Shown here: positions 12,112 through 21,472 of the stretch, piece by piece | Numbering within the stretch: position 1 is the first letter of the stretch | How the letters are laid out: the number at the start of each line of letters is the position of its first letter | Virus record (IMG/VR): IMGVR_UViG_3300027491_000018 | Location: 1 to 23,840 of that record | Direction: 5' to 3' (one strand) | Source: a virus | Length of the DNA: 23,840 bases | The notes under the pieces: generated by a model | What the model saw: the letters and a program-made list of their open reading frames with translations, nothing else | What the model was told of the DNA's origin: nothing | Databases searched by the model: none | Made by a program: the position numbers and the translations under genes

Positions 12112-12984
12112 TCAAACAAGCGTCTGCGGGCAATCGGGATGCTTGATGCGACGCAACTCCGCGACCGCCGCGAAGATCTCTTTGGCGTTGGCGGGATAGG
12201 TAAGGTCGCCGATGTGGGACAGCGCCACCTTCGTGTCGGTGTGCACCTTGCCGCCCAGATTGCGCCACTCATGGCAAAGCATGTAGTCCTCGCTTAGCCA
12301 AATGGGGTTGCCAGGCATCACCTCGCGGACGCCGGATTTAAAATAGGCACGCGACGTTTTCAGCGTGTGCACGTCGGGATCATTCGATCCGAGGTTGTAT
12401 TCGTCCGCGAGCCCGGCCTCGCGCATCTTGTCGAACACGCTGCGGTGAATCAGCATGAAGCCCGTTCCGGCGTGCACCACTTCAATTAGCCCCCGTTCGT
12501 CCACCTTGGCGCCATTGAGCCCGTTGATCGCGAATTGCGGCACGACGCCTTTGAGCGCGTACGGAGCCGTCACGACCTTGTGCCCGATCATTCCGTGCTG
12601 CCAGAGCCGCGCCACGGCCGCAGCAGGGAAAACAATGTCAGAGTCAATGAAGAGCAGCCAGTTGTATTTCGTCGCGAGGAACTTGGCTACGATCTTGTTT
12701 CGCGCCCGGTCGATGTGGCTTTCCTTGTCCAGAAACATGGACTCGGCCACCAATGGCTGAAGCTCCACATCGCCCGCGGCATTCTTAACGCGGATGCTGA
12801 CGTGCAACAGCAGCTCGTTGTATGAGGTCATAAACCCCATTTTCACATTCCCGCCGTAGCAAGGAGTGCCAATCACGATTCGGTCGGCCTCGTCGAAGAC
12901 CATAGGCGCCGAAGCGTCAGAGACCGCGGCCACTTGCGCCGCGTGATCTGTTAGCGTTGAACTATCTTCGTGTGTAGCGGTCAT
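12112..12984 (-). CDS. GT2/GT-A-type glycosyltransferase
   Basis: A 290-residue protein with a GT-A nucleotide-sugar fold: IVIGTPCYGG at the N-terminus, the metal-binding DSD in LLFIDSDIVFP (residues 114-116), an acceptor-side WLSEDYMLCHEW (229-240), and a late His in ALSHIGDL (254-261). ARNKIVAKFLAT before the DSD is typical of this phage-associated family. It should transfer a sugar from a nucleotide sugar to an unknown acceptor in the cytoplasm. It sits between capsid and connector genes, where a virion-modifying enzyme would be expressed together with its possible target. The first 30 residues lack a clear domain. The three hairpins upstream may lower its expression relative to the capsid. 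Confidence 0.85.
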   Translation of the reverse strand: MTATHEDSSTLTDHAAQVAAVSDASAPMVFDEADRIVIGTPCYGGNVKMGFMTSYNELLLHVSIRVKNAAGDVELQPLVAESMFLDKESHIDRARNKIVAKFLATKYNWLLFIDSDIVFPAAAVARLWQHGMIGHKVVTAPYALKGVVPQFAINGLNGAKVDERGLIEVVHAGTGFMLIHRSVFDKMREAGLADEYNLGSNDPDVHTLKTSRAYFKSGVREVMPGNPIWLSEDYMLCHEWRNLGGKVHTDTKVALSHIGDLTYPANAKEIFAAVAELRRIKHPDCPQTLV

Positions 12985-13087: not shown

Positions 13088-13954
13088 TTAAGCAGTCTTG
13101 ACGTGCGCGCCGGCGGTGTTGTCGCCGAGAGCGGCGCCAAACATCACATCCAGCGAGGCCCACGCGGAACGGCTGGAGAGCGAGCCCCAGGTGTTCAGCT
13201 GGACCGAGATTCCGAGGTCAGGCAGCGTGATCGTGCGGGAGCCGGCGAGCATCGAAGCCACGCCAGGATCGACGATCGGCAGACCGGCCGCGGCAGCGAC
13301 CGCCTCGGGACCAACCGCGAAGCCGTAGATGTTCGTGCCGGCGCCATCCCAACGGGTGTTGAGGATGATTCCGTCGAAACCATAGGCGCCGGGGCGGTAG
13401 CTCGAAGAGCCACCCGTCGGGAGCTGGAAGTTTTCACCGCTCGTCGGGAGGAGCTGCGCGAACGCAGTTCCGTCCAGAATCAGATGGCGCAGCGAGCTCT
13501 TCGCCACGAAGCCCCAAAGGGTCTTGGCGTTCGCAGCGGCGAACGAAGCCTGGGCAACGGTGACGTTGCTGGGGAAGTTCGTGGCGGTGATCGGTGCCAG
13601 CGCGATGTCGATGAGCTTGTTAGCGAGCACCTGCGCATTGATCGCGGCGAGCTGCTCAAGGCGGAAGCCCTGGTTCAGCTCCTGCGAGCTCAGGTTGTAG
13701 CTCTTCGAGTAGTGCTTCACCTGGACGGCAACGTTGGTAACGTTGGTGTCGCCGGTCTCGAAGTTCGTCGGGTTGGTCTGCACCGCGCCGGCCGCATTGG
13801 CCTTGCGAACCTGAACGTAAGCGTTCTGGTTCATCTGGTCGGTGGTGAAGTCCGTGCTGAAAGCGCGGAGGGGAGCCAGGCGGTTGCCCAGCGTCGTCAG
13901 GGTGGCCTCGGCGAGAGTGTCGAGGACGAGGGAGGAAGACAGACTGTTAGCCAT
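13088..13954 (-). CDS. Major capsid protein
   Basis: A 288-residue protein starting at ATG 13954 with the composition of a HK97-fold capsid subunit: Ala, Thr, Ser and Asn rich, few Cys. It has an extended N-terminal part (LRAFSTDFTTDQMNQNAYVQ), a helix segment with YNLSSQELNQGFRLEQLAAI, and a late stretch ITLPDLGISVQLNTWGS followed by a GAALGDN end. It lies directly after the protease-scaffold gene, as expected. No N-terminal delta domain is present, in keeping with a separate or fused scaffold upstream. The start has no Shine-Dalgarno sequence, which is striking for the most abundant phage protein. Stable hairpins follow the stop. Confidence 0.85.
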   Translation of the reverse strand: MANSLSSSLVLDTLAEATLTTLGNRLAPLRAFSTDFTTDQMNQNAYVQVRKANAAGAVQTNPTNFETGDTNVTNVAVQVKHYSKSYNLSSQELNQGFRLEQLAAINAQVLANKLIDIALAPITATNFPSNVTVAQASFAAANAKTLWGFVAKSSLRHLILDGTAFAQLLPTSGENFQLPTGGSSSYRPGAYGFDGIILNTRWDGAGTNIYGFAVGPEAVAAAAGLPIVDPGVASMLAGSRTITLPDLGISVQLNTWGSLSSRSAWASLDVMFGAALGDNTAGAHVKTA

Positions 13955-13977: not shown

Positions 13978-14442
13978 TTATTTACGGACAGAAAAAGCAG
14001 CGAAGAGCGCCTCGCGGTTCATCTTGCGGAACGAGCGCTTTTCCGCGCCTTCGGGCATCGCCTCGTACGCGGTCAGCATCTCTTCCGGCGTCTTGAAGGC
14101 GGCGGACTTGCGAGCGAGCTGAGCGTGCGCGACCTTGACAGGCGCTACGCCGAGCTGGCGAGCGTCGAAGGCAGCGAGATCCTCGACCTTGCTCTTAAGC
14201 TCGTCGCGCTCCTTGGAGAGCTCGGCAACGACGGCTTCGGCCTTGGTCTTGTCAGCGGTCAGCGTGGCAATGATGGCGTCACGCTCAGCGAGCGCGGCCT
14301 TGTGGGTCTCGCCCAGCTTGGAAAGCTCGGCAACCTGCTTCTCGGCTTCAGCCTTGAAGGTGGCGATTTCGGAATCCTTGGCGGCGAGAGCGGCGGCATC
14401 AACAGCCGGGGCGATCTCGGTCTTGATTTCGGGAGTGGTCAT
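13978..14442 (-). CDS. Possible nested scaffold protein from an internal start
   Basis: An in-frame ATG at 14442 (Met190 of the fusion) lies exactly at the boundary between protease-like and coiled-coil parts and would give a 154-residue scaffold. Lambda makes scaffold Nu3 from an internal start in gene C in the same way. There is no Shine-Dalgarno sequence before it, but most starts in this window lack one. Evidence is positional. Confidence 0.4.
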   Translation of the reverse strand: MTTPEIKTEIAPAVDAAALAAKDSEIATFKAEAEKQVAELSKLGETHKAALAERDAIIATLTADKTKAEAVVAELSKERDELKSKVEDLAAFDARQLGVAPVKVAHAQLARKSAAFKTPEEMLTAYEAMPEGAEKRSFRKMNREALFAAFSVRK

Positions 14443-15009
14443 GGAGGTCTGCAAAGATTTGCTATCGTCAACGGATAGAAGCCCGTTGGGGTTGGCGGCG
14501 GGGCGCTGCACCAGGTCGGCGCTCATTACGTTCGCGATGCGCATGCTGGGAGCGGAGCGAATGGCGCCAGACGGGGCGGCATCCCCGAGCATGGCCGGAA
14601 TCTCGGTTCCGTCAGCCATCACCCACACAGGACGGTATTCCAGCACCAGCGAAACGCCAAACTGGTCCGGCACCTTTTGCGCCAGTTCCACCAGCTTGTC
14701 ATAGGTGGCGCCAGCTTCGCGCTTGAACGATTCGAGAAACTCGAAGCTCTTCGCCTTAATCTTTTGCCCGTCGCGGTAAATGCCGCTGAAGAATCCGATT
14801 TCCTGGCCCAGTCGGTCCGTGCCGGCGCCGTCGTGCTTCAGATAAGCACGCAGACTTTTTCCAAGCAGCAGCCGCATCGCGTCTTCAATGCTCTTGTCAT
14901 CGATGTACAGCCCGTGTCCGGCAGCTTCGATCCCGCCCGTGATGAGCGAGACGTTGCGAAAGCCGGTAGAATCGGCGTTGAACTGTTCAAGGCAGACGCG
15001 GTTTGCCAT
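13978..15009 (-). CDS. Prohead protease-scaffold fusion protein
   Basis: A 343-residue protein; ATG 15009 is chosen because the longer frame (to 15102) runs back into the portal gene. Residues 1-185 look like a capsid maturation protease: LRAYLKHDG with candidate catalytic His59, FGVSLVLEY with candidate Ser120, and MSADLVQRPAANPNGL (162-177), a motif recalled from such proteases. Residues 205-282 are a charged heptad-like coiled coil typical of scaffold. The end (EGAEKRSFRKMNREALFAAF) is basic and may bind the capsid shell. The protein would guide assembly of the capsid subunit encoded next and then cleave the core. The catalytic residues are assigned by pattern only. Confidence 0.75.
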   Translation of the reverse strand: MANRVCLEQFNADSTGFRNVSLITGGIEAAGHGLYIDDKSIEDAMRLLLGKSLRAYLKHDGAGTDRLGQEIGFFSGIYRDGQKIKAKSFEFLESFKREAGATYDKLVELAQKVPDQFGVSLVLEYRPVWVMADGTEIPAMLGDAAPSGAIRSAPSMRIANVMSADLVQRPAANPNGLLSVDDSKSLQTSMTTPEIKTEIAPAVDAAALAAKDSEIATFKAEAEKQVAELSKLGETHKAALAERDAIIATLTADKTKAEAVVAELSKERDELKSKVEDLAAFDARQLGVAPVKVAHAQLARKSAAFKTPEEMLTAYEAMPEGAEKRSFRKMNREALFAAFSVRK

Positions 15010-15026
15010 AATCTTTTGCGGACTCG

Positions 15027-16856
15027 TCAACTTTCGCGTTCGATTTCGAGCACCTTCCGTTCGGCCCAGGCGTAGCCGGCATCTCCGCCCCAGAGCGCCC
15101 ACGCGATGCGGCCGGCAGAGGGATAACCTGGCTCGCCAGGGTTAAAGCCTTGGCCCTCTTTGTCCACTTCGTGCCGGCGGAAATACGCCTTCATGCGGAA
15201 AATCGTGTCTTCCGACAGATTGCGCCGGTTGCTGATGTCGCGAGCGCGTGCCACGCCAACCTCGGTGCCTCCGCGGCCGTACTCGTCGCGCCATTCAAGC
15301 CCGCGGGCAGCTTCAACGGCCATCTCGTCGGTGGGTCGAGTGTCCACCTGAAGGGTGGCAACGGACATCTGCGCGGCATCCATTGGCACCTGAACTGGCA
15401 CCGGGATCGGCTCGTTAGCGGTCGGCGAAAGATCCCCGCGGAGACCAGGCACCGGCAGACCAGCTTCCTCGAGCGCGTCATTCTCCGCGGCGCGGCTGGC
15501 AATGTGCGTCTTCAGGTCGATTCCCCGTTCCGCGCAGATGTCGCCTAGGTTGATAATGCCCGACAGATAATCGTCGCGCTGAGCGGCGGCATCGCGGCCG
15601 AAATCCACGGTCAGCCGCGGCGGCATCGTAAATGACCAGCGCCACCAGTCCTGAGAGGCAGGGAGGCGTCCCATCTTCACAGCCTTGGCAATCGCGTAAC
15701 CCACGGCGCGCCGAGCGAACGGCTTTAGCAGGTCTTGCCGATCTTCAACGGAGCGCATCGCCGTTGAGATGACGAAGCGAGTGTTGGCGCCGCCTAGCGC
15801 GCTGATGTCCCACGCAAGCTCGAACGGCCAGTTGATGCCGGCCATCGCGTTACGCAGCAGCCGGTCCATGAACTTTTGCCAGGCGTCGCCGGGTCGGTCG
15901 TTCTTGAACGCTTCGAGCTTGGATCCGCTGCCGGCCTTGAAGTGGCGGACCATTCCGCCCATGAATTCCTTCGCGGCCACGTCCTGCGTGACGAGCGGTG
16001 AGCCAGAAAGCGCAATCGCCGGGTCGCTCGTGTCAGCCAGCCCGCTCTCGTTGTATTCGATAAGCCCGATGCTGGACGCGAGCGCCGATGCCATCTTTTC
16101 GTAGCCCTGCACCGTCCGCAAATCCTTAAGGTCCAAAATCGCGTGCGCGAAGCCCGGCAGACCGCGGAATTGATTGATCCACGCCGGCTCGGCCAGCAGC
16201 ACCATATCGCGAGCGGTGACGTACTCGCGAGATTCTTCCATCTCTTCGCCGCCAGGCATCTGGCCCTCTTCCTCGACGTAATACGCGACCGGACGGCCCT
16301 GCGGGTTGATAATCACGCCATCGACGCACCGCAGCCCGGTAAACGGCCCTTCGAGCAGGAAGCCGTGACGGTCCACCTTGTCTGAACTCGGGTTGTGGAC
16401 TGCTTCGCTCGGGATTAACTGAATAGCTGGAAAATCGGTCTCGTACTGCGTGAGCAGAGCGCCCACGTCTCCGTCGCGATCCACGGCGACAGATGCCAGG
16501 TAAAGCGAGGTCTGGAAGTCGCGGCCGCCCACGTCGGCAATCGGATACCACTCGTTGATGAGCCAATCGCGTGCACGTTCGCCCCACGCCTGGTCCGTGC
16601 CTTCGAACTTAGGAAGCCAGCTGCGTCCAACCGCATACATTGCCTTGGCGTCGATAGCGCCTTTAGCTGGCCCCAAGTTGGCGTACAGCTTGCGCGAATC
16701 GCTCAGCAGTTGCTCGCGGTCGGTGGAATTTACCTCGGAGGAAATGCTGCCGATGGTGCGCACTTCTAGCGGCCGGCGCACAATCTCTTTGCGGTTGGTG
16801 GCGTCGAAAAGAGCACCCAGAGCGGCGCGGAATCGCTGCGGAAGTGGCGTCGGCAT
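15027..16856 (-). CDS. Portal protein (lambda gpB family) with extra C-terminal domain
   Basis: A 609-residue protein starting at ATG 16856, two bases after the upstream stop. The portal part covers about residues 1-480: LYANLGPAKGAIDAKAMYAV near the N-terminus, the wing-like region with AVDRDGDVGALL (124-135), RGLPGFAHAILDLKDL (231-246) and a C-terminal crown with DDYLSGIINLGDICAERG. It forms the dodecameric ring for DNA entry. After a Pro-rich linker (480-510) comes an unusual domain at 516-602 with YGRGGTEVGVARARDISN, HEVDK and YPSAGRIAWALWGGDAG. I recall this domain from other phage morphogenesis proteins, including proteases, but cannot name its function. Confidence 0.87.
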   Translation of the reverse strand: MPTPLPQRFRAALGALFDATNRKEIVRRPLEVRTIGSISSEVNSTDREQLLSDSRKLYANLGPAKGAIDAKAMYAVGRSWLPKFEGTDQAWGERARDWLINEWYPIADVGGRDFQTSLYLASVAVDRDGDVGALLTQYETDFPAIQLIPSEAVHNPSSDKVDRHGFLLEGPFTGLRCVDGVIINPQGRPVAYYVEEEGQMPGGEEMEESREYVTARDMVLLAEPAWINQFRGLPGFAHAILDLKDLRTVQGYEKMASALASSIGLIEYNESGLADTSDPAIALSGSPLVTQDVAAKEFMGGMVRHFKAGSGSKLEAFKNDRPGDAWQKFMDRLLRNAMAGINWPFELAWDISALGGANTRFVISTAMRSVEDRQDLLKPFARRAVGYAIAKAVKMGRLPASQDWWRWSFTMPPRLTVDFGRDAAAQRDDYLSGIINLGDICAERGIDLKTHIASRAAENDALEEAGLPVPGLRGDLSPTANEPIPVPVQVPMDAAQMSVATLQVDTRPTDEMAVEAARGLEWRDEYGRGGTEVGVARARDISNRRNLSEDTIFRMKAYFRRHEVDKEGQGFNPGEPGYPSAGRIAWALWGGDAGYAWAERKVLEIERES

Positions 16857-16858
16857 GG

Positions 16859-17137
16859 TCAGCGTAGGAAGGCGGCGGTTTGTGAAACGGGAGCAGTAAA
16901 GCCGGCGTCAATCGTCTGGATTGCCAACTCGCTTGCCATAATGAGATCAGCAATCGTCGTTCCTGGCAGCGCCTGAACGGTAATTGATTTCCCGTTAAGC
17001 GCCGTGCCGACGATCTGTCCGTTTTGCGCGCTCATGTCGGTCCACTTGGAGGCTTGCAGGTCTTCGAGCCATTTGCGCGGGTTGGCGGCATTATTGCGCC
17101 TCGCTTGACGCAATAGGATGCTCACAAGGATTTTCAT
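16859..17137 (-). CDS. Small protein in gpW position, putative head-tail joining
   Basis: A 92-residue protein from ATG 17137. The frame can be extended to a TTG at 17179 overlapping the upstream gene, which is less likely. A basic N-terminal half (LLRQARRNNAANPRKWLEDL) is followed by IVGTALNGKSITVQ and a helix (TTIADLIMASELAIQTID). Lambda gpW, encoded between terminase and portal, has a similar two-strand then helix pattern in 68 residues. The match is by order and pattern only. Confidence 0.55.
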   Translation of the reverse strand: MKILVSILLRQARRNNAANPRKWLEDLQASKWTDMSAQNGQIVGTALNGKSITVQALPGTTIADLIMASELAIQTIDAGFTAPVSQTAAFLR

Positions 17138-17156: not shown

Positions 17157-17855
17157 TCAACGCAAGCCCGCGTGGGCAATGTCTATTGCCGAGATCTCGG
17201 GAGGACGCATTTCGCCGCTTTTTCGCAGGGTTGAGAACTCCACCGCAAGATTGTCGCGCACAATGCAATAACCTTCTCGCAGCGAAGCCTTGACGAGTGA
17301 CTCGGGGTGAATCGGGCAGCCCGCCTCGATCAGCTTTTGTAACTTCGCAAAGGTCTGGAAGTATTCCGACGCAGCGTGACTTCCCATGATCGCGAAACGG
17401 TCATTGATGCCACCGAATCGGCCCCACCAGGGCGTCAGTGCCTCGTTTACAAGCGGCATGTAATTCTGCTCGCAGCTGTGGAAGAAGAGGTCTGGCCTGA
17501 GACGCACGAAGACCTCGGGATCCTTGGCCGGCATGTCGCAGTAGAGTTCCCACCCCTTTTGCAGCTGCCAGAGCTGGCGCAGCACCGCTTGCATTGGAAC
17601 GCTGCGCGCATACGGCTCGAAACGCACCGGCTCGGCCGGCTCAGGAATCTCTGGCTGCGACGGCTCGACCTTGGCAACCGATGTTGAGCCGAAAAGCCCT
17701 CCCGTAATCATGTGCGACATCGCGTCCTCGTCTTCGACGGTCGAGAAGTAGAAATGCAGCGGCTGCGGAAGATGTCGTGCAACGTGCCATTTAAAAGTGT
17801 GCGCGCACGTCTTCCAGGTGCGCATTTGTCCGGTAACGATGATGACGCTGCTCAT
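17157..17855 (-). CDS. Glycosyltransferase-like protein
   Basis: A 232-residue protein starting ATG 17855, overlapping the radical SAM gene stop as ATGA. It has the pattern of sugar transferases found in surface-polysaccharide loci and large viruses: IIVTGQMRTWKTC at the N-terminus, VRLRPDLFF in the middle (an R-x-R/DL-type nucleotide-sugar site), and GGINDRFAIMGS toward the C-terminus. A Pro/Glu-rich insertion (about residues 63-80) is a probable loop. No membrane segment is present. Tight coupling to the radical SAM enzyme suggests they act on one pathway. The donor sugar and acceptor cannot be told. Confidence 0.72.
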   Translation of the reverse strand: MSSVIIVTGQMRTWKTCAHTFKWHVARHLPQPLHFYFSTVEDEDAMSHMITGGLFGSTSVAKVEPSQPEIPEPAEPVRFEPYARSVPMQAVLRQLWQLQKGWELYCDMPAKDPEVFVRLRPDLFFHSCEQNYMPLVNEALTPWWGRFGGINDRFAIMGSHAASEYFQTFAKLQKLIEAGCPIHPESLVKASLREGYCIVRDNLAVEFSTLRKSGEMRPPEISAIDIAHAGLR

Positions 17856-19195
17856 AATTTCATGCCTCGCAGTTTAGCGGCCCCGTCTGGATTCGCGATG
17901 TAGCCGTCGTCGATCTTCGCGGCAGCGTATTTCTCAAGCGAGCCGGTAACTTTGAGCGTGTGCAGTGGCGTGCCTTCGATTTCGGCCGTTCCGCTAAGTT
18001 GATGCGTGTCCAGTCCGCCGGTGGCGTAAAGGTTTTGGATGTACGCGACGGTTTCCTTTTGCTGTTCGGCAGTCTCGCCTGGCAGCCCAACGGTGAACGT
18101 GCCATGCACCGTCATGCCCATTGACTTTAACATGCGCGCCGTGTCCGCGGCCTTTTCCAAGTTAAGCCGCTTGTTGATGATGGAATCAATGACAGTCTGC
18201 GAGCCGCTTTCAAATCCGAGCTTCACCCCGAAGCAGCCGCAGTCGCGCATGAGCTGCCAGGTCTCTGGTTTCACCGTATCGGCTCGGCACATCGCGGACC
18301 ACGGGAGCCCTATTTCCTTCATCACCTGCGAAATGGCGCGGGTGTGCTTCTCGGTCAGGTTAAAGGTGTCGTCGTCCAGATAAATTGAGTTGTAGCGCAC
18401 GCCGGCATCCGCGGCCGCGTTAATCTGTGCAATGATTGATGCCTTCACCCATTCCGGCGTGTGGCATCTGACTGTCCGAGCGCGGGTGCCGTCGGGGTCG
18501 TTTCCAGTCATCACTGCCGGCCAAACGCAGAAAATGCACTTGTAAGGACAGCCCCGGCTGGTGATGAGCTGCAGGTGCGGCGACTTTTGTCCGGTCGGGC
18601 ATGCGTCCCAATAATGCCCGATTGTTTCTGGGTCGTGCAAAGGGAACGGCAAAGAATCCATTTCCTTTAGCGTCAGCAGGTCGTGTTCGAGCACGCCACG
18701 TTTGCCGCCGATAACCTTCGCAATCTGCTTGTCGTATTCGCCCTTTATGATCGCGACCACGTTTGGGTGATCGGCCAGAATGCTGTCGGCCTTCGCGCAG
18801 TCGAGCGGTCCGCAAAGAATGATCTTGGCCTTGGTTTGAGCAGCAAGCCAGCGAATCACCTTTTGATCGTGGACCCACGCCGCGGTGGCGGTTTCAATCA
18901 CCACGAAGTCCGGCGCAATCTGTGCGACGGCTGCACAGAATTCGTCGTAGGTCTCGCCACGAGCGATTGAATCTCTCACCTGAATTTCGGCTCCCGCCAG
19001 CAGCTGCTGCGTCATCGCCGCGGCCGAGGTCAGGAAAAACGGGAACGGCAGATACCCGCCAAACTTGAAATCGCCTGGCTTGTGAACGCTGTAGCGCGTG
19101 AAGGGCCAACGGGAGCCAGCCCGCACGCCGATTAGTAGCTGTCCGTTGCTCGGATCAATGTCCCACCACGGCGGGTTGGAGAATATGATTTTCAT
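17852..19195 (-). CDS. B12-binding-type radical SAM enzyme
   Basis: A 447-residue protein from ATG 19195. The open frame continues to 19375, but there it lies within the terminase gene. Residues 1-180 form a Rossmann-like domain resembling the cobalamin-binding domain of this family (KIIFSNPPW, FVVIETATA, KIILCGP, VVAIIKGE); the DxHxxG His motif is not seen. The radical SAM core has the 4Fe-4S cysteines C216, C220 and C223 (RGCPYKCIFC), then IYLDDDTF (271-278), GFESGSQ (328-334) and VGLPGE (369-374). Enzymes of this group cleave S-adenosylmethionine and often methylate unactivated carbons or rearrange rings. The substrate is unknown. The gene overlaps terminase by 41 bases and is followed by a sugar-transferase gene. 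Confidence 0.87.
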   Translation of the reverse strand: MKIIFSNPPWWDIDPSNGQLLIGVRAGSRWPFTRYSVHKPGDFKFGGYLPFPFFLTSAAAMTQQLLAGAEIQVRDSIARGETYDEFCAAVAQIAPDFVVIETATAAWVHDQKVIRWLAAQTKAKIILCGPLDCAKADSILADHPNVVAIIKGEYDKQIAKVIGGKRGVLEHDLLTLKEMDSLPFPLHDPETIGHYWDACPTGQKSPHLQLITSRGCPYKCIFCVWPAVMTGNDPDGTRARTVRCHTPEWVKASIIAQINAAADAGVRYNSIYLDDDTFNLTEKHTRAISQVMKEIGLPWSAMCRADTVKPETWQLMRDCGCFGVKLGFESGSQTVIDSIINKRLNLEKAADTARMLKSMGMTVHGTFTVGLPGETAEQQKETVAYIQNLYATGGLDTHQLSGTAEIEGTPLHTLKVTGSLEKYAAAKIDDGYIANPDGAAKLRGMKL

Positions 19196-20969
19196 CGTGT
19201 TTTTCTGGTGAAGGGATAAGTTGAAGGGCGAGTGCCACGGCCACCTGCATGGCCTCGCAGTCCCACATATGGTTCGGCCCTTGTTTCGTCCAGCGCCATT
19301 CGCTGCGGCCGGTCGCCTTGCTGATGCGCTCGCGCTTGATTTCGCCGCGCAGGTGGCGTGCATACTCCTCGCCATGATCGCGGCCGCATTCCCACGGGTG
19401 TGAGGTTCCGGCGACGAGCGCAGCCAGGATGTCCTTTACTGGATCGGATGCCCAGAACATGTAACGAGCGTAGCCGCCGGGCACCTGCGTTTGTTTGATG
19501 CTCGAAAAGAATTTCTGCACCTTCTGCCCTCCACGGCCTAGGTGCGCAAACGAGTCTTCGCCGCTGCCGTGAAGCGCCGTCCAGCCGTAGCGGATGCAGT
19601 CTTCGTAAACTTGAGCCGTGGAAAACTGCGCGTCCTCGAAGCACAGTTGCGGCTCCACGCCGAAGCGGGCGCGCACTTCTTCGGCCTGTTCGGTCGTGCT
19701 GATTTTGCCACGCCAGAGCAGCCGCGAGCCGCCGTCGCTGCGCCAGGCGCGAATGACCGCCCAGAAATGGTCGCGCTGCCGGTCAATGGTCATCATGCGG
19801 CGCGCTTCGTTTTCTATGCGTTCTGCGGCCTTCTCTTGAAATTCGCCCAGCAGGTAATCGCCGCGCAGCTCCACGGTAGCCCGCGTGATTTGCTGCTCCT
19901 CGTTGCGCCAGGGTAGCGCCAGCCGTTGCATGTAGAAATCGCGCAGCGGCGCGATCTGGCCGCGTTTTTTAAACTCGCCGGCCTGGATGAACTCCACGGC
20001 AAGCTGGCCGAGATCCTCCGCGAGCAGCGCGTTCCAGTTAAAGCTGCGGTGTTTCCCGTCTCGGTCAGAGCGCGGCGCGCTGTACCGCCCCGTGGCGTTC
20101 CACTTAGCCCGTGTGCCGGCCGAGTTCGTGTGTTCGTGACCGCACCGCGGACAGAGCCACCGGGTTGATGCTCGCACCTTTTGCTCGTCCCATTGGCCGT
20201 TGTCGCGCTTCGCGTTTTCGTCCCAGACGACGCACGCACGCTTTGCGGCTTCGCCCTCGGCGCGGCCGAAGAAGACCAGCGGTTGAAACGTGCCGCACCC
20301 GAAGCACTGCACGCTCCAGGCTTGGCTGGTACCATCGTGCCAGAGCCGGTCGAAATCGTCGCCATCCTGCGAGCCCTGGCTTTCGTTCAGAATCTTTGAA
20401 ATCCCGTCGCGGGCGTAAGCCGAGACGCGCCGGCGGGCGTGCGTTAGCAGCCCTTGCTTCCAGAGCCAGCACTCGCTGTTCAACTTCCAGCGGATCGACT
20501 TGCTCTGCAGATTGTTAAGATTCGCGCCGTTAATGATGATGTAGAAATCGCCGAAGTAGATTTCGCAGGTTGCCGCGTCGTGCTTGTTTTTCGGCAGCAG
20601 CCGAGCCACCGGCTCACAGTTGCGCAGCAGGTTTCGGTAGCGTCCCTTGACGTGCTCGGCTGCGCTCTCGTCGTCCTGCTGGGTCCACATGATCGGCCCC
20701 GGCTCGTTTGCGATGGCCCAGAGCGAGCAGATTTCCACGAACAGCGTTTTGAGCGTCTGGATCGCAGCGCGGCATGTCACCTCGCGCACGCGCTCGTCGG
20801 CCACAGCCTCGAACGGTTCAAGCAGGTGTCTGCAGGTGCGGATGTCAAAGGCGCCCTGGCGAGCGTAGCCACCGCCCAGCTGCACGAAATCCCGCGCCCA
20901 ATCGTGAATCGGCCGGCGATCTGGAAGCGCCCAACCGCGACGCCAGCCCTGCAAATTCTCGACGCTCAT
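19155..20969 (-). CDS. terL: Large terminase subunit (gpA family)
   Basis: A 604-residue packaging ATPase-nuclease starting ATG 20969, overlapping the small-subunit stop as ATGA. It has a degenerate Walker A (IQTLKT, residues 70-75), the conserved gpA-family stretch PIMWTQQDDESAAEHVKGRY (92-111), and two CxxC pairs (222/225 and 273/276) that make a zinc-binding insertion. The nuclease part has FEDAQFSTAQVYEDCIRYGW, an ASD motif (MFWASDPVKD) and a late acidic NHMWDCEAMQVA. Together with the small subunit it cuts concatemers and pumps DNA through the portal. Gly is replaced by Leu in the QTLKT box, common among divergent terminases. The C-terminus overlaps the radical SAM gene. Confidence 0.88.
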   Translation of the reverse strand: MSVENLQGWRRGWALPDRRPIHDWARDFVQLGGGYARQGAFDIRTCRHLLEPFEAVADERVREVTCRAAIQTLKTLFVEICSLWAIANEPGPIMWTQQDDESAAEHVKGRYRNLLRNCEPVARLLPKNKHDAATCEIYFGDFYIIINGANLNNLQSKSIRWKLNSECWLWKQGLLTHARRRVSAYARDGISKILNESQGSQDGDDFDRLWHDGTSQAWSVQCFGCGTFQPLVFFGRAEGEAAKRACVVWDENAKRDNGQWDEQKVRASTRWLCPRCGHEHTNSAGTRAKWNATGRYSAPRSDRDGKHRSFNWNALLAEDLGQLAVEFIQAGEFKKRGQIAPLRDFYMQRLALPWRNEEQQITRATVELRGDYLLGEFQEKAAERIENEARRMMTIDRQRDHFWAVIRAWRSDGGSRLLWRGKISTTEQAEEVRARFGVEPQLCFEDAQFSTAQVYEDCIRYGWTALHGSGEDSFAHLGRGGQKVQKFFSSIKQTQVPGGYARYMFWASDPVKDILAALVAGTSHPWECGRDHGEEYARHLRGEIKRERISKATGRSEWRWTKQGPNHMWDCEAMQVAVALALQLIPSPEKHDENHILQPAVVGH

Positions 20970-21472
20970 TCGGCAGGTTGCGCGGCCTGTGCGGCGGCCT
21001 TGCGTTTGGCTTTCTGCTCAGTCTTCCAGTCTTCCAGCGCGTTCTGCATGGACACGCACACCAGGTCCGCGTGTTCACGGGACAGCTTGCGGATCTCGCC
21101 CACGTCCAACCCGGCGACTTTAGGCGGAAGCTCGGTCGTGAATCCCTGATACATAGCGGATTTTACCCTGGCGGCCAAAAATAACAAAAAGTTGTCCACA
21201 TCCTCCGCGGGAATCAGCTTCGCCTCGGCTTGTGCGATCTTAATTTGATTCAGCCGTACCTCGCTCGCGAGCTTTTCCACGAGCAACTCTTCGCGACGCC
21301 GGCTTTTCCGAGGCCCAGCCTGGCCGAGCCCGTGCCGGTCGATGAATTCGCGCCACTCGGCCTCGGCGTAAGCCTTCGGCGAGTCGGGATATTCGCGCTG
21401 CCAGTTGCGGATCGCCGTCGGAGAGCAGCCGAGCGCCCGCGCCAGCGCCGTGTGCGTCTTGTGTTCGCTCAC
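20966..21472 (-). CDS. terS: Putative small terminase subunit (Nu1-like)
   Basis: A 168-residue protein starting with GTG at 21472, overlapping the upstream TAG by one base. Residues 5-28 form a helix-turn-helix (HTALARALGCSPTAIRNWQR), which would recognise the packaging site. A central basic helix (RKSRRREELLVEKLASEVRL) and a further helical C-terminus follow, as in terminase small subunits, which oligomerise. It ends in a charged, Ala-rich tail (KAKRKAAAQAAQPAE) and overlaps the large-terminase start through ATGA. A DNA-binding protein in exactly this place makes the call strong. Confidence 0.8.
   Translation of the reverse strand: MSEHKTHTALARALGCSPTAIRNWQREYPDSPKAYAEAEWREFIDRHGLGQAGPRKSRRREELLVEKLASEVRLNQIKIAQAEAKLIPAEDVDNFLLFLAARVKSAMYQGFTTELPPKVAGLDVGEIRKLSREHADLVCVSMQNALEDWKTEQKAKRKAAAQAAQPAE

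Follow-up and report, generated by a model that had tools for sequence, protein, structure and literature searches.

Radical SAM and glycosyltransferase genes among phage head genes as a candidate virion-glycosylation cassette

Enzyme genes within the head region

We analyzed an IMG/VR virus record of 23,840 bases (hereafter the window, i.e., the whole stretch at its full length), in which all phage genes discussed lie on the minus strand. The head region opens with TerS (20966–21472) and a GpA-type TerL (19155–20969; GpA_ATPase, 2.4e-17; GpA_nuclease, 2.2e-12), the end of which is overlapped by the start of a gene for a 447-aa radical SAM enzyme (17852–19195; Pfam Radical_SAM, 1.1e-14). This gene and the next one, encoding a 232-aa DUF7796-family protein (GT1, 17157–17855), are bounded upstream by TerL and downstream by a 92-aa gpW-like small head gene (16859–17137), which was named from its size and position, had no significant family match in a Pfam scan, and is kept in relatives. 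There follow a lambda-family portal (15027–16856; Phage_portal_2, 1.3e-30; phrog_21 and phrog_2859), a protease/scaffold gene (13978–15102), and a candidate for the 288-aa major capsid protein (13088–13954). The latter was identified by its position after the portal and protease/scaffold genes, which is that of the P22-coat-like gene in phage P8625, and is weakly similar to capsid-position ORFs of three other phage contigs (L029, L035, and L109). Directly downstream of it lies GT2 (12112–12984), encoding a 290-aa GT-A-like glycosyltransferase, with more virion genes after it in the gene order.

This layout agrees with a previous sequence-only reading of the window, which had described a radical SAM enzyme joined to a sugar transferase and inserted between terminase and portal. 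Its coordinates and motifs for this locus were right (RGCPYKCIFC, DDDTF, GFESGS, and GLPGE were all found), and the stop codon of the radical SAM gene does overlap the start codon of GT1 in an ATGA (17852–17855), which is the site of a further gene, X, in most relatives. The GpA and Phage_portal_2 matches bear out the terminase and portal around the inserted genes, the gpW-like gene being placed by size and position, and GT2 is the second glycosyltransferase that had been noted behind the capsid gene.

Portal relatives about 30% identical were found in 17 of the 289 genomes searched from a single phylum, the Verrucomicrobiota, and the cultured Verrucomicrobia phage P8625 was among the better annotated portal matches, which gives a tentative hint of the host. 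Since the TerL–portal gap of P8625 holds an HNH-like gene (by sequence inspection), we regard this gap as an insertion site; it accepts other inserts, and position alone could therefore reflect a hot spot. Separately, a C-terminal portal domain of ~105 aa (residues ~502–608; RGGTEVGVARARDISNRRNLS...HEVDKEGQGF...AGRIAWALWGGD) was 55–77% identical across many otherwise dissimilar phage contigs. A domain of this type forms the N-terminus of the next (protease/scaffold) gene in L029 and L035, and occurs in small ORFs of about 118 aa in two genomes (G390 and G387).

The radical SAM gene is an intact ORF with an N-terminal Rossmann/B12-like domain and a canonical CX3CX2C motif, whose three cysteines were invariant across 12 diverse members, placing the protein in the radical SAM superfamily. 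Structure prediction from a shallow alignment yielded a low-confidence model (mean pLDDT 60), to which the nearest fold was AprD4 (6fd2, E 3e-12), and which also resembled cobalamin-bound TsrM and OxsB. The B12-type label is plausible, with a B12-binding Pfam match (E 0.007) that falls below its cut-off (16.6 versus 32.1 bits). AprD4, which deoxygenates paromamine (PMC5461906), is the closest solved relative by both fold and sequence (profile match, 3.3e-22), and its substrate contains a sugar. However, identity to AprD4 is 18% in the fold alignment, cysteine spacing differs in the profile alignment, no AprD3-like reductase was recognized, and the NCBIfam AprD4 score (64.3 bits against a cut-off of 500) leaves the protein outside the AprD4-type diol dehydratases. 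The best NCBIfam match, covering most of the protein, was HpnJ (9.9e-44), at 150 bits against a cut-off of 577.6, i.e., outside that family as well. HpnJ converts BHT-glucosamine into BHT cyclitol ether (PMC12583986); its substrate thus bears a glucosamine, whereas its hopanoid context is absent from the window. Because these nearest characterized relatives both act on sugars, we propose that the radical SAM protein is a sugar-modifying enzyme. A match to PDC-M51A in a defence-system library (1.6e-11) was considered and set aside as a superfamily match rather than a defence assignment.

GT1 is probably a soluble GT-A-like glycosyltransferase. The window protein had no match in its own Pfam scan, while 7 of 12 members of its family matched DUF7796 (best 8.6e-7), with conserved R-x-R-x-D-L, NDR, and HPE motifs. 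Its predicted structure, also from a shallow alignment (mean pLDDT 45), was used only for the coherence among its fold matches, nearly all of which were glycosyltransferases (best E 7e-3). GT2 scored just above the Glyco_transf_21 cut-off (21.9 versus 21.7 bits), matched phrog_1574 (7.7e-19) and the glycosyltransferase family phrog_34859, and carries a conserved FID/YID-x-DI motif. Glycosyltransferase identity is accordingly supported for GT2 by Pfam and PHROG matches, and less firmly for GT1 by DUF7796 and low-confidence fold matches. X, located between the radical SAM and GT1 genes in most relatives, encodes a class I methyltransferase of 178–181 aa (Methyltransf_24). Profile searches of the PDB with GT1, GT2, and X returned nothing useful, and no strongly hydrophobic segment was found in the radical SAM enzyme, GT1, or GT2.

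In an annotated phage collection, GT1 had no match and the radical SAM enzyme only distant ones, in Streptomyces phage SF3 and two unannotated records. In the cultured SF3 (L125:8332-10906), a B12-type radical SAM gene adjoins genes for a thymidylate kinase and a NUDIX hydrolase, possibly a nucleotide-related context. GT2-family genes were found in two T4-like phages, Caulobacter phage Cr30 (L228:5959-6807) and Sinorhizobium phage phiM12 (L229:5962-6939), where they are annotated as hypothetical and, away from the capsid gene, belong to the replication cluster, close to gp46/gp47 and the sliding clamp. These may be DNA or other glycosyltransferases.

Gene content, selection and recurrence across phages

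We compared the window with 21 other contigs sharing the same head region (portal 79–100% identical), i.e., a family of 22. GT1 was present in all 22 and GT2 in all 15 that reach its site, while the radical SAM gene was found in 16 and X in 18, X being called from an ORF or tblastn match in part of the loci and otherwise from a matching gap of ~540 bases. Both genes occur together in 12 contigs, four have the radical SAM gene without X (the window, L002, L013, and L014), six have X without the radical SAM gene (L007, L011, L023, L024, L026, and L118), and none lacks both. Junctions are clean where X is missing: the flanking genes overlap in an ATGA in the window and in L002 and meet at TAA-TTT-ATG in L013 and L014. 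A contig 98% identical to the window (L003) carries X at positions 1997–2536. On a TerL+portal tree of 21 family contigs, much of it poorly resolved, X and the radical SAM gene each underwent at least two state changes, and their frames are intact. Since both genes occur in the divergent pair L004/L005 and in the near-identical L003, losses are the simplest reading: the ancestral cassette would have comprised four enzymes, and the three-enzyme state of the window would derive from loss of X. Judged by gene content, the radical SAM enzyme and X are individually dispensable.

Median dN/dS, estimated by a pairwise counting method with synonymous sites strongly diverged in many pairs, was 0.086 for the radical SAM enzyme, 0.074 for GT1, 0.054 for GT2, and 0.14 for X, compared to 0.07 for the portal and 0.13 for the capsid. 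By these ratios, the cassette enzymes are under purifying selection. Given medians of 0.05–0.09 and radical SAM homologues that stay intact down to 48% identity, the arrangement is not due to chance. In the early region of one relative (L222, 4631–6823), we also observed a 731-aa protein in which an SNF2-type helicase is fused to an N6/N4 DNA methylase.

A profile search of viral contigs recovered radical SAM relatives at 48–57% identity. Of the 22 contigs in this second set, 19 carried a DUF7796 GT1 and 18 a related methyltransferase, compared to 0 of 59 control phage contigs for either gene. Because several of these contigs were also sources of queries and some are nearly identical to one another, the independent evidence amounts to a handful of lineages. 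The three contigs lacking GT1, one of them from the window's own family (L111), break off within the radical SAM gene or shortly past it. Besides the window family, the lineages represented are L093, L095, L100, L101 and its kin, L109, and the L096/L112–L115 group. In L093, L100, and L101, the enzyme set comes just behind the capsid gene, and L101 has a nucleotide-sugar epimerase and more glycosyltransferase-like genes besides. L109 has a methyltransferase and GT1 in the TerL–gpW gap and GT2 after the capsid gene, while X and the radical SAM gene are upstream of TerS. In L096/L112–L115, the set is not clearly beside a capsid gene.

Two related phages, L029 and L035, lack the radical SAM and GT1 genes and hold no enzymes of this kind in the TerL–portal interval. 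Instead, a 723–736-aa glycosyltransferase and a second, small glycosyltransferase-like gene directly follow the capsid gene (L029:6451-9294 and L035:13759-16572). Compared to the window family, this indicates that glycosyltransferases next to the capsid gene are a recurring feature, with the particular enzymes varying. Overall, phage glycosyltransferase genes are tied to virion structural genes across these relatives.

The search for co-occurrence in related phages, which the sequence-only reading had suggested as a check, thus showed the radical SAM and GT1 genes (with a methyltransferase) recurring together, mostly near capsid genes, and did not turn up the pattern it had named as contrary, relatives with just one of the three genes at unrelated loci. 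Its proposal of a three-enzyme set needs revision: a recurrent set does sit in the head gene region, but with four enzymes ancestrally and the methyltransferase lost here. GT1 and GT2 are always kept; the radical SAM enzyme and the methyltransferase are individually dispensable, and GT2 is not tied to the others, since L029 and L035 have other post-capsid glycosyltransferases and T4-like phages carry GT2 relatives.

Bacterial counterparts and flagellin genes

Bacteria that carry homologues of the radical SAM enzyme (37–54%) include Opitutaceae, Chthoniobacter, cyanobacteria, Rhodospirillales, Magnetococcales, and Pelagibacteraceae, among others. These homologues commonly have epimerases and glycosyltransferases nearby; one annotated example is on an Azospirillum plasmid. 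A phage-like radical SAM–GT1 pair was seen in three loci (L126, L131, and L153), all from Opitutaceae. Both L126 and L131 have two flagellin genes, then the radical SAM gene, then the DUF7796 GT1, with FliS and FliD homologues further upstream; in L126 (4389–12048), nucleotidyltransferase, WavE, and methyltransferase genes come after GT1. The L153 contig begins inside the radical SAM gene. Adjacency of the pair to flagellin genes is confined to two loci, a third having one flagellin gene about 7 kb away; a wider tally of flagellin neighbors was skewed by which proteins had been picked and does not serve as a frequency here. DUF7796 matched once per genome in three Opitutaceae genomes, each time the GT1 of the pair, and in 0 of 14 control genomes; within the order of L131, GT1 was found in 1 of 177 genomes, that of L131 itself. 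The L126 and L131 loci are candidate flagellin glycosylation loci with a radical SAM enzyme, and none of the ten papers listed on flagellin glycosylation mentions radical SAM.

Bacterial flagellin glycosylation islands resemble the phage cassette in that glycosyltransferase, methyltransferase, and sugar genes adjoin the gene of a protein that is abundant and self-assembling, and the two Opitutaceae loci hold homologues of the phage radical SAM–GT1 pair. The phage copies differ in lying by head genes, rather than next to flagellin.

A possible role in virion glycosylation

On balance, we lean toward a reading in which this head-operon cassette would produce a modified sugar and link it to a virion protein, with the major capsid protein as the likeliest acceptor. 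Specifically, the enzymes would be expressed late with the head genes; the radical SAM enzyme would remodel a host-supplied sugar by deoxygenation or C-methylation; X, in most relatives, would cap it by methylation; and the soluble GT1 and GT2 would attach the sugar to the virion protein and extend it, with shielding or altered surface binding as the potential benefit. The acceptor, the sugar, the reaction, and the order of steps are those we infer. More tentatively, the outcome might be a head bearing a radical SAM-tailored (deoxygenated or C-methylated) sugar, and the cassette behind it, interchangeable and capsid-linked, might have a common ancestry with bacterial loci for flagellin glycosylation.

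Virion glycosylation is suggested by the constancy of GT1 and GT2 in the family, the recurrence of the radical SAM–GT1 pair against its absence from the controls, the enzymes following or flanking the capsid gene in the window family, L093, L100, L101, and L109, and the different glycosyltransferases that L029 and L035 carry immediately behind that gene. It is also consistent with the epimerase and additional glycosyltransferases of L101, the Opitutaceae pair directly following flagellin genes, the bacterial homologues near epimerases and glycosyltransferases, the sugar substrates of the nearest characterized radical SAM enzymes, three enzymes free of strongly hydrophobic segments, the purifying selection on them, and the lack of recognized base-hypermodification genes among the ORFs scanned in a 32.3-kb relative. 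Mycobacteriophages offer a precedent: glycosyltransferases that they encode themselves add sugars to capsid and tail tube (Che8 gp110 and Corndog gp38; Freeman et al. 2023, as cited in PMC12363180). The likeness lies in the phage-encoded glycosyltransferases; there, however, glycosylation of capsid and tail tube is shown, and PMC12363180 mentions no radical SAM enzyme, whereas the window enzymes sit in a head operon and their role in glycosylation is putative. Phage virion glycosylation as such is already known (PMC12363180); the new elements would be a radical SAM step, a capsid-linked layout with interchangeable enzymes, and the parallel to flagellin.

Several observations weigh against virion glycosylation: the GT2 relatives of Cr30 and phiM12 sit in a DNA replication cluster, the TerL–portal gap may be a hot spot, the radical SAM enzyme and X are each dispensable, the radical SAM gene of L109 is upstream of TerS and the L096/L112–L115 set is not clearly capsid-linked, GT1 was assigned as a glycosyltransferase from a DUF and a low-confidence model, and flagellin adjacency is limited to two loci.

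Among the alternatives, the enzymes may instead alter host LPS, capsule, or glycolipid, thereby blocking superinfection or easing release. Many bacterial radical SAM homologues do have epimerases and glycosyltransferases close by, in the manner of surface-polysaccharide loci, and the glycosyltransferases of pelagimyophages, aquatic phages with both glycosyltransferase and radical SAM genes, have been interpreted as modifying the O-chain (PMC7029224). The pelagimyophage genes, however, lie in a hypervariable region with tail fibres (PMC7029224), unlike those of the window. We consider host-surface modification unlikely given enzymes without a strongly hydrophobic segment, no flippase recognized in the window, and genes placed among head genes and recurring by capsid genes in several lineages.

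It is more doubtful that the glycosyltransferase, radical SAM, and methyltransferase genes are unrelated morons gathered at a permissive site without a joint pathway. The HNH-like insert of P8625, the independent coming and going of X and the radical SAM gene, and the L029/L035 glycosyltransferases that follow the capsid gene without the other enzymes would all fit such a scenario. Yet the radical SAM, methyltransferase, and DUF7796 genes recur in other lineages at other sites, the radical SAM–DUF7796 pair also exists in bacteria, and X and the radical SAM gene are never both missing from a family contig.

Finally, decoration of packaged DNA bases by the glycosyltransferases, which had been raised from the sequence alone and would fit the Cr30/phiM12 homologues adjoining gp46/gp47 and the sliding clamp (a replication-cluster region where T4 keeps a DNA glucosyltransferase gene too), is improbable, because the radical SAM–GT1 pair adjoins flagellin in bacteria and because no nucleotide hydroxymethylase, thymidylate-synthase-like, nucleotide kinase, or deazaguanine gene was recognized among the ORFs scanned in the 32.3-kb relative (ends overlapping by 123 bases).

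Phage virion glycosylation has been shown in few systems so far. If our favored reading of virion glycosylation holds, a radical SAM cassette by capsid genes in several uncultured lineages would represent new chemistry and provide gene-level markers for it. The radical SAM–DUF7796 pair beside flagellin, for its part, offers a tangible system for testing what this protein family of unknown function does.
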